From IMG/VR virus record IMGVR_UViG_3300046665_000361, positions 1-64,000 of that record: 64,000 bases of DNA; one strand, given 5' to 3'. Below the pieces are notes generated by a model that was given only the letters and a program-made list of their open reading frames with translations, did not search any database and was not told the DNA's origin. Shown here in pieces: positions 11,025 through 13,660 of the stretch (position 1 is the stretch's first letter; each line of letters starts with the position of its first letter). Made by a program: the position numbers and the translations under genes. The DNA is from a virus.

Positions 11025-11537
11025 ATGTTCAAACGATTGATTAAATGGCTAAAAGAGTTCTACGGGATTGGAGTTCAACCGGAAGAACCATTGCCTGAAG
11101 ATGTGTGGGATCTACTGTTCGTTTTATCAGAACAGGTCTCCGCTAAGAAATTCGCTGGGTTAGACATCACCCACTTTGACATCATTGTTCATACATACAG
11201 TCCCCACATCAAGGACTTGTGTAAACGCCTTGAGATGATGATCAAATGCATCAAGACCGATCAGACAGCTCCTCTGTGGTGGGAAGAGCGCGATGCAATG
11301 AAGCTGTACGATTGCTTGCCTGATTTCCTGTTCGAAGATGTTGTAGGATACTGGACGCCTGCTAAAACAGCGAGCGTGCTAACCGAGAAGGTCATAGTCA
11401 TACATGATCTAATTGAGCAGCTATCCATCAATCCGAAGCATAGCTATTATTTTTACATGAGAAAGGAGTTCTACCAAATAGTAAGTGACGCTGTTGAAAT
11501 CCTCACCCGTTTGAATCAGATAGGAACCGACAAGTAA
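11025..11537 (+). CDS. Unknown 170-residue helical protein
   Basis: First gene of a three-gene unit. Helical, with Trp-containing segments (WWEE near residue 85) and a basic N-terminus; no membrane segment or known motif. Its ribosome site AAGGAGG lies within a short hairpin. The second gene follows after 64 bases. Confidence 0.55.
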   Translation: MFKRLIKWLKEFYGIGVQPEEPLPEDVWDLLFVLSEQVSAKKFAGLDITHFDIIVHTYSPHIKDLCKRLEMMIKCIKTDQTAPLWWEERDAMKLYDCLPDFLFEDVVGYWTPAKTASVLTEKVIVIHDLIEQLSINPKHSYYFYMRKEFYQIVSDAVEILTRLNQIGTDK

Positions 11538-11601: not shown

Positions 11602-12099
11602 ATGGCGATGCACAAGAAAGCAGGTCGTAGAAAGAGCATCAGCACTTGGCGAGAAATCATGCAAGCCAGTGATAAACAGGCAGATGCCACTTCCCACGAG
11701 TTGGCTAAACTGTTTCGTGACATCATGGCAACGCACGGTATCTCTATCACCAAGTTCGATAACCTGGCCGATCGATATTACCGAAAGGTCCATACCAATC
11801 GAAAAGGTGTGTGTGATCTGGTCAAGGTCAGTCAGGAGAAAAGTAACCTGACGCGAGCTCTGGCTTCAGACAGTATACCGTGGTTCAGATTTGTGACCAT
11901 GGTGCGGCTGTTAGGGCCAAGGAGTTATACGTTTACACTGACGATGGAAGATGCGGTTGGCCGCAAACATCACCACACAGTGCAGACGATGAACCGGTTT
12001 GTTCTCGCACCAGTACCTGAGGAAGAGGATGAGCCTCAGGAGGAAGAAGTACCTGAAGAACAGATGTCTCTTAACTTCGACAACGAGGACGGTAAATGA
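11602..12099 (+). CDS. Probable DNA-binding protein with C-terminal clamp-type peptide
   Basis: 165 residues. The N-terminus is basic; residues about 80-115 contain a segment, SNLTRALASDSIPWFRFV, that recalls phage helix-turn-helix proteins in which a serine-rich turn precedes the recognition helix. A run of acidic residues (about 135-153) ends in QMSLNF at residues 154-159, which fits the Q-x-x-L-x-F/L form of bacterial sliding-clamp binding peptides at a free C-terminus. This suggests a regulator or replication factor tethered to a clamp. ATG at 11602 with TTAGGA upstream; the stop overlaps the next ATG by four bases. Confidence 0.5.
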   Translation: MAMHKKAGRRKSISTWREIMQASDKQADATSHELAKLFRDIMATHGISITKFDNLADRYYRKVHTNRKGVCDLVKVSQEKSNLTRALASDSIPWFRFVTMVRLLGPRSYTFTLTMEDAVGRKHHHTVQTMNRFVLAPVPEEEDEPQEEEVPEEQMSLNFDNEDGK

Positions 12100-12554
12100 T
12101 TAACCTACCTAATCCTGCCGATGATGGTGAGCAACACATCAACTGCTGGACCCAAGCCAAAACCCGTCTCGGTCGGTTAGCTACCAATCTATCCGATCTA
12201 CGTACACGTCATCCAGACTACGGATTGTTCCGTTGCGCTGAAGGTCTGTACTACTACCTCAAGACAGGGATGCGGCACGAGGACCTGCGGGCGATGGATG
12301 GTTTCTCTGCCAAGAACTTTGGTAGCGCTCAAGAGATCAAATGGAATAACAATCTCTGGGCAGAAATGAAAGTCGGTATCCGCAACAAGATCGAAGACAG
12401 CGAGGAGTTGCGTGAACTCGTTGTCGAATCCTCGTTGCCGTTCGAACACTATTACGTCTATCATGGACGAGTAGTGGTCCCCCGCGGATCTGATAAGTTC
12501 ATTCAGGTCCTTGAAGAAATTCGCAGTGAAATGTTTGCCGAGAGCAAGCGTTAG
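12096..12554 (+). CDS. NADAR-like (YbiA/DUF1768) domain protein
   Basis: 152 residues covering one domain. Features of the NADAR fold appear in order: an E-x6-K pair (E49, K56) in CAEGLYYYLK, an AK pair (A72-K73), a tryptophan followed by a helix WAEMKVGIRNK, an ELRELV helix, a short FEHYYVYHG strand and a closing FIQVLEEIRSEM helix. NADAR proteins act on ADP-ribose derivatives; some remove ADP-ribose from guanine in DNA and so cancel DarT-type toxins. In a phage this suggests anti-defence or NAD-derivative handling. The WG and NxxG motifs of canonical members are degenerate here. Co-translated with the gene before it. Confidence 0.6.
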   Translation: MINLPNPADDGEQHINCWTQAKTRLGRLATNLSDLRTRHPDYGLFRCAEGLYYYLKTGMRHEDLRAMDGFSAKNFGSAQEIKWNNNLWAEMKVGIRNKIEDSEELRELVVESSLPFEHYYVYHGRVVVPRGSDKFIQVLEEIRSEMFAESKR

Positions 12555-12559
12555 TGTTT

Positions 12560-12599
12560 GGGAGGCTTCGGCCTCCCTACACCCCCTCTTCTTTTTTTT
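12560..12599 (+). terminator. Intrinsic terminator
   Basis: Stem GGGAGGC at 12560-12566 and GCCTCCC at 12571-12577 with a TTCG loop; a T-run ends at 12599. It closes the three-gene unit that ends at 12554. Confidence 0.85.
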
Positions 12600-12634: not shown

Positions 12635-13660
12635 ATGTCCAGCACACTTGCCAGTACCGTCTTCCAAGGCAACTCTAAAAACGCGATGATTGTTGAAGAC
12701 GCGTACAAGTTGTCTAACGTTGAAAACAAGAACAGCATTTACGATACCGGTAAGGGTATCTTCGCTGACGCCATCACTGGCATGAAGAACAACACGGGGT
12801 CTGTGAGAGACCTCGCTCAGCTGGTCATGCAATCGAAGACTGGTACTGTTGATAAGACCGACATGCTCAACCGAGCCCTGAGTGCCATGGGGAGCAGCTT
12901 ACCCAGCCTCCTTGGTCAGCTTGGGGGTTCGTTGCTTACGCAGGTCCAGTCAGCTGCTGGGACCCTTATCGGCGATGATGCGGCTAAGGGCGTTGGCATT
13001 CTGTACAAGAATGCCGAATTACTGGTCGGCGTGGCCGATGCGAACAGTACTGAGGACCTGATCAAGTTCATCAACGCTCTCGCAGGTAATGATGAGTTAG
13101 CCAAGTTCGTCAACATCGAAGCCGAGTCTGCGGTTATTGGTGCTGCCGCTTCGATGCTTCTGAAGTACGATATTCCTGAGCTGGTTGATGATGTCATCGC
13201 ACAGTCTCAGTCGGATGCTGTAAAACAGAACGCTTACGCTTATCTGTCGAGTGAGGCAGTAAAGGGTTCCAACCTCGCCCTGATCAGCAAAAGCATCGAC
13301 ATGATCGGTCTTGCTGCATTCATTCAGAATAACCCAGATGCTATCAATCAGATCCTCGGTTCATTCTTTCTGGGTACAGCTGATACTGTTGACACATATC
13401 CTGCCAAACGGGCTGAGTTGTTTGCACTGTTGGTCAAGATCAATCCTTACTGGGATCAGGTGTTGGTAAACGGTACTTACATGCAGAGCCTGTCTCCGTA
13501 CATTGCATCATCTGCTGATGCGAAGAAGTTGTTCCTGTACGAAGAGAACGGATCGTTGTCGCATTACGGTATCATGACGTTGGCTTCTAAAGGCTTCCAG
13601 CCGCGGGATGTAACTGGGGTTATCAAAGACCTCTACCCTAACGCGTACATTCCAGCCTAA
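12635..13660 (+). CDS. Probable virion protein beside the giant tail gene
   Basis: 341 residues, Ala/Leu/Ser-rich and predominantly helical, with repeated short helices and no known catalytic motif. ATG at 12635; the ribosome site is weak (GGTG), unlike neighbours. It is transcribed alone between a terminator and a strong hairpin and faces the minus-strand virion block at 13.7-22.4 kb, so a structural role is likely. Confidence 0.5.
   Translation: MSSTLASTVFQGNSKNAMIVEDAYKLSNVENKNSIYDTGKGIFADAITGMKNNTGSVRDLAQLVMQSKTGTVDKTDMLNRALSAMGSSLPSLLGQLGGSLLTQVQSAAGTLIGDDAAKGVGILYKNAELLVGVADANSTEDLIKFINALAGNDELAKFVNIEAESAVIGAAASMLLKYDIPELVDDVIAQSQSDAVKQNAYAYLSSEAVKGSNLALISKSIDMIGLAAFIQNNPDAINQILGSFFLGTADTVDTYPAKRAELFALLVKINPYWDQVLVNGTYMQSLSPYIASSADAKKLFLYEENGSLSHYGIMTLASKGFQPRDVTGVIKDLYPNAYIPA

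Follow-up and report, generated by a model that had tools for sequence, protein, structure and literature searches.

A phage gene between gp171-like and gp174-like neighbours encodes a predicted NADAR hydrolase of the T4 gp30.3 type

One gene of a 64,000-nucleotide stretch of viral DNA (positions 1 to 64,000 of IMG/VR record IMGVR_UViG_3300046665_000361, the whole of which we call the window) encodes a protein that structural modelling and profile comparison place securely in the NADAR superfamily, within the phage gp30.3-type branch, which is marked by a histidine in the last strand (H118). With its NADAR fold, its conserved pocket residues and the purifying selection acting on the gene, the protein is predicted, by analogy with tested relatives, to be an active enzyme. 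We give roughly even chances to the explanation that it is a catalytically competent gp30.3-type NADAR, a hydrolase of guanosine-linked ADP-ribose, which undoes ADP-ribosylation of nucleic acid by host defence. The NADAR family, the gp30.3-type branch and the in vitro chemistry of that branch have already been published, and the window gene is a further member.

The open reading frame at 12096-12554 begins with ATG, and its start shares four bases (ATGA) with the end of the preceding open reading frame, 11602-12099, whose product we call U (Table 1). A stable hairpin with a UUCG loop (-19.4 kcal/mol, z=-4.7) lies 3' of the NADAR stop codon and may mark the end of the U-NADAR transcription unit; a consensus terminator scanner did not pick it up. 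The closest relatives of the protein in viral contigs (loci L020-L022) share 56-58% identity with it, and a search with this single protein returned no near-identical contigs. Pairwise dN/dS values of ~0.07-0.17 within two close groups of relatives indicate purifying selection. By tblastn, the family has matches in 487 phage records, some of them due to chance as E values up to 10 were accepted, and on these sequence matches it is widespread in phages. The loci compared below (L numbers) were picked by similarity to the window NADAR, and the sample is thus tilted towards close kin.

Table 1 Features of the NADAR locus in the window.
Feature	Position	Strand	Basis or remark
Gene further upstream, no assigned function	11025..11537	+	conserved only in nearest relatives L020-L031
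Upstream partner U, phiKZ gp171 family (phrog_7801/4910)	11602..12099	+	ATGA overlap with NADAR gene
GAGGA ribosome-binding site	12085..12089	+	sequence; 6 bases before NADAR ATG, within the end of the upstream gene
NADAR (gp30.3-type) CDS	12096..12554	+	152 aa; open reading frame, phrog_652 and phrog_11222 matches, AlphaFold2, Foldseek
E49 codon, equivalent of C7 NADAR E88	12240..12242	+	68/68 relatives
K56 codon, place of C7 NADAR K95 (E-x6-K)	12261..12263	+	present in window copy
K73 codon (AK), aligned with P. nicotianae NADAR K75 / C7 NADAR K115	12312..12314	+	8bau alignments; K in 61/68
H118 codon, last-strand histidine marking phage gp30.3-type NADARs	12447..12449	+	64/68 relatives
Candidate terminator of U-NADAR unit	12560..12599	+	hairpin GGGAGGC-TTCG-GCCTCCC, then T8 14 bases on
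Downstream gene D, phiKZ gp174 homologue (annotated structural protein)	12635..13660	+	phrog_5028; tblastn E=3e-9

When the window protein was searched singly, Pfam, PHROGs and PADLOC returned no named function: the PHROGs matches were strong (phrog_652, E=9e-27; phrog_11222, E=3e-25), neither family having a named function, and neither Pfam NADAR (PF08719) nor Pfam Phage_30_3 (PF08010) matched. Each of these two Pfam families was matched by 2 of 17 relatives, with best E values of 0.005 and 2.9e-4, respectively. As searches with the single protein were uninformative, we relied on family profiles and on structure. The AlphaFold2 model (mean pLDDT 96.8) has the alpha+beta YbiA fold of five core helices and two small sheets, and its first three Foldseek matches were E. 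coli YbiA (2b3w; E=1.4e-4, TM 0.70, probability 1.00), 8bau (E=0.0045, probability 1.00) and 8bat (E=0.086, probability 0.98); the fourth, which was the first outside NADAR/YbiA entries, had a probability of 0.05. A profile built from 68 relatives found two matches at E<10 among 177,635 PDB sequences, both NADAR/YbiA (8bau, E=0.004; 2b3w, E=0.15), and a profile from 17 relatives found 8bau, the NADAR of P. nicotianae, at E=5e-4. In a control comparison with 84 proteins, the first four ranks were taken by T4 gp30.3, PhiPA3 gp201, YbiA and phiKZ gp172, and the best unrelated protein scored ~37-fold worse than phiKZ gp172, the weakest of these four. Because the fold match is unambiguous, we regard the PF08719 miss as a limit of sensitivity. 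A preliminary description of this DNA had proposed a NADAR-like gene at these coordinates from an ordered set of motifs, and had named a structural match as its check; the fold, PDB matches restricted to NADAR/YbiA and the motifs themselves (E49-x6-K56, A72-K73, W83/W88 leading into helix 87-101, and the C-terminal helix 132-150) all agree with that proposal.

The best understood point of reference for the pocket is the NADAR of E. coli C7, which relies on E88, K95 and D171 to reverse DarT1 modification, and in which K95 is needed for catalysis whereas K115 is dispensable for catalysis and yet required against DarT1 in vivo (PMC11543638). Counterparts of three of these four residues are found in the window protein. 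E49 is invariant in the 68 relatives and is separated from K56 by the same spacing as E88 from K95. K56 supplies the pocket lysine in the window copy, although the position is poorly conserved in the branch (among the 68 relatives K in 16, L in 14, R in 13 and A in 10); given this variability, E-x6-K carries little weight as a motif, and in gp30.3-type proteins the part of the lysine may be taken over in another way. K73, kept as lysine in 61 of 68 relatives, corresponds in profile alignment to K75 of 8bau, a residue equated with C7 K115 in the literature (PMC11543638). The same position is Q in T4 gp30.3 and, by hhalign, A in YbiA, neither of which rescues cells from DarT1, so that over these three proteins a K73-type lysine appears to correlate with rescue.

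In place of D171, the aspartate of the DarT1-associated NADARs, or of the last-strand glutamate of the YbiA subfamily, the window protein carries H118, as do 64 of the 68 relatives. A last-strand histidine substituting for the catalytic acid was described by Cihlova and colleagues as the mark of phage gp30.3-type NADARs (PMC11125620). Position 134 is K in the window copy, V in L020-L022 and tryptophan in most relatives. Several loci (L067, L068, L069, L072, L081, L054 and L084) carry a second NADAR paralogue, in some cases directly 3' of the first copy, in which E49 is retained and H118 is replaced by A, S or R.

The 93-kb viral contig that contains the window also encodes chimallin (PF25677), members of the phiKZ gp28 and gp29 families and several families of RNA polymerase subunits; judging from chimallin, the phage is probably nucleus-forming. 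The NADAR gene stands between homologues of phiKZ gp171 and gp174, and this order recurs in the loci of many relatives. In others (L014, L017, L033-L036, L086 and L088) the gp171-like and gp174-like genes adjoin each other and NADAR is found elsewhere nearby, which indicates that these two genes are linked with or without NADAR between them. In phiKZ gp171 (L106:2529-3290) and its PhiPA3 counterpart (L123:1729-2484) the profile of the U family matches twice in tandem, pointing to a duplicated domain. Plaques fail to form when phiKZ gp174 is knocked down, and many metabolic genes of the host are then expressed at lower levels (PMC12571901); the window gene D is a homologue of gp174, and its linkage to NADAR in relatives may bear on this effect. 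Genes for ADP-ribosylglycohydrolases occur within a few kb of NADAR in Salmonella phage Munch (L005:4081-5046) and Xanthomonas phage XbC2 (L008:6261 onward).

The preliminary description had also held U to be a probable DNA-binding protein, and had read from this that the enzyme acts on DNA. That part of its interpretation found no support, while the NADAR assignment, with its pocket residues kept, did: U is a homologue of phiKZ gp171, and Pfam (no match), PDB sequences and PDB folds all failed to support DNA binding. The best PDB sequence match was to Alba (2h9u, E=1) and the best fold match had E=1.1, with a probability of ~0.2 for Alba; these two weak Alba matches agree with each other and neither is significant.

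The slot between the gp171 and gp174 homologues is occupied in phiKZ by gp172 (L106:3283-3723) and in PhiPA3 by gp201 (L123:2489-2866), both with distant NADAR scores. At the position of E49 they have K or N, and the HYY motif is missing from both; they sit on very long branches in the tree, so their exact place in it is unsure. From their sequences, they are probably decayed, non-catalytic NADARs. As they occupy the same site without E49 and the H118 motif, a catalytic role appears dispensable in some relatives, which counts against the main explanation for the window gene. A likely origin can now be offered for gp172, which belongs to a model nucleus-forming phage and has no function assigned in its record.

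What the enzyme would act on can be approached through T4 gp30.3, which belongs to the same branch. In vitro, T4 gp30.3 takes ADP-ribose off guanosine of DNA, though not off thymidine (PMC11125620), and it is also active on RNA, less efficiently than C7 NADAR (PMC11833690). By analogy, the window protein would cleave the N-glycosidic bond between ADP-ribose and guanine. We further propose that this activity, encoded in the gp171-like/NADAR/gp174-like cassette, would let the phage strip ADP-ribose from nucleic acid that a transferase of the host's defences has modified. The target may be DNA carrying a DarT1-type modification, with RNA no less probable, and K73 would contribute to engaging the nucleic acid, the role suggested for K115 of C7 NADAR.

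In relatives, NADAR domains of the same branch are fused to Macro and SLOG domains (L033 and relatives), to DUF4326 and SLOG (L074, L090) or to SLOG alone (L003, L086), and the Macro-NADAR-SLOG and DUF4326-NADAR-SLOG fusions of jumbo phages have been published (PMC9503650, PMC7824862). A different companion is found at L091:5989-8880, an intact open reading frame of 963 aa in which NADAR is joined to a 3'-5' exonuclease and a family A DNA polymerase. PMC9503650, the one paper examined for this fusion, does not mention it. A scan for other polymerase fusions returned just the contig of L091 itself and an unfused relative, and when the junction region was searched by tblastn no phage record reached 80% query coverage; the polymerase fusion therefore rests on one contig.

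Iyer and colleagues have proposed that most phage NADARs act mainly on small ADP-ribose derivatives (PMC9503650, PMC7824862), and it is possible, though we consider it unlikely, that the window protein uses its N-glycosidic cut to degrade a small ADP-ribose signal or toxin, such as the cyclic ADP-ribose of Thoeris-type systems, and leaves cellular nucleic acid alone. The Macro, SLOG (YAcAr) and DUF4326 fusions of branch members would fit this reading, and a phage that keeps its DNA hidden would be better served by a target that is small and cytoplasmic. However, our literature search found no NADAR that cleaves such a signal, the activities that have been measured being on guanosine-linked ADP-ribose in DNA and RNA, and the lysine resembling C7 K115, together with the polymerase-fused relative, argues for nucleic acid. 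We thus regard nucleic acid as somewhat more likely to be the target than a small molecule. From the published work, we take hydrolysis of guanosine-linked ADP-ribose as the likely chemistry of the window protein and counter-defence as its likely purpose.

The preliminary description had favoured a narrower form of the main explanation, in which NADAR is a specific counter-defence against DarT1 acting on phage DNA, and this we find doubtful. The residues through which C7 NADAR reverses DarT1 modification, and K115 which it requires in vivo, can be set beside E49, K56, H118 and K73 of the window protein; a fusion to a DNA polymerase occurs in one relative, and mutations in phage DNA polymerases permit escape from DarTG (PMC11481870). 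Against it, T4 gp30.3 and YbiA, although active in vitro, do not rescue cells from DarT1 (PMC11125620), the aspartate of the DarT1-associated subfamily is replaced by H118, and we found no direct link to DNA at the locus. The DNA of this phage is moreover probably sheltered in a phage nucleus, and protection of DNA in the cytoplasm would then be needed less. No DarT gene was found in 43 related phage records, so NADAR is not the antitoxin of a phage-borne DarT in those phages. A NADAR anti-DarT factor is reportedly known under the name AdfN. The Pfam families matched by 90 scanned proteins of the 93-kb contig included none named for an ART, Macro or NAD gene (two proteins of very large size and a third at a join were outside this inventory), and no Macro domain was found in the contig; as the contig is a fragment, these absences are weak evidence.

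Finally, it is improbable that NADAR serves the gp171-gp174 cassette chiefly in a structural or regulatory capacity, with its fold kept and catalysis secondary or lost. Such a role would fit phiKZ gp172 and PhiPA3 gp201, which at the same site lack E49 and the H118 motif; gp174 is annotated as structural and its knock-down blocks plaques (PMC12571901), and the same phiKZ region runs on into the head protease and virion genes. Against it, beyond the phiKZ group the residues of the pocket are strongly conserved, E49 being invariant in all 68 relatives, and the NADAR gene is also found in many phages that have no gp171-gp174 cassette.

The explanation as a hydrolase of guanosine-linked ADP-ribose on nucleic acid thus has in its favour the conservation of E49, H118 and K73, all present in the window copy, the activity of T4 gp30.3 on DNA and RNA, and the domain fusions of relatives, those with Macro, SLOG and DUF4326 as well as the one with DNA polymerase. 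The failure of T4 gp30.3 to relieve DarT1 toxicity in cells, the poor conservation of K56, the lack of a named ART, Macro or NAD gene among the scanned contig proteins, the probable phage nucleus and the diverged phiKZ and PhiPA3 copies speak against it. A more ambitious and speculative scenario, which we would not expect to hold in full, is that in nucleus-forming phages NADAR is an old part of the gp171-gp174 cassette which repairs ADP-ribosylated nucleic acid, that K73 makes it active against DarT1 in vivo, unlike T4 gp30.3, that the enzyme decayed into a non-catalytic protein in phiKZ and PhiPA3, and that the same domain was built into the DNA polymerase of another phage. Because its members carry the lysine which separates the DarT1-rescuing C7 NADAR from T4 gp30.3 and YbiA, the gp30.3-type branch offers a clean test of the role of this residue in rescue.

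Compared with known proteins, the window NADAR is closest to T4 gp30.3, its best single hhalign partner, with which it shares the fold core, the E-x6-K motif, the last-strand histidine and a length of 152 aa; the two are nevertheless only ~12% identical over 83 aligned residues, T4 gp30.3 has Q where the window protein has K73, and the T4 family PF08010 is not matched by the window protein. YbiA, the best fold match, differs in its last-strand glutamate, in having no K73 equivalent in the alignment and in an identity of 18%. The DarT1-associated NADARs (BC4488 type, DarG1; E. coli C7; G. lovleyi 8bat) share the fold and the equivalents of E88, K95 and K115, but have D171 for H118, an N-terminal extension with a proposed DNA groove and a co-encoded DarT1, none of which is found for the window NADAR. 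Similarity to phiKZ gp172 and PhiPA3 gp201 lies in genomic place and in a detectable NADAR-like core, and not in E49 or the HYY motif. The Macro-NADAR-SLOG and DUF4326-NADAR-SLOG proteins contain a NADAR domain of the same branch, which in the window protein stands as a single, free-standing domain.
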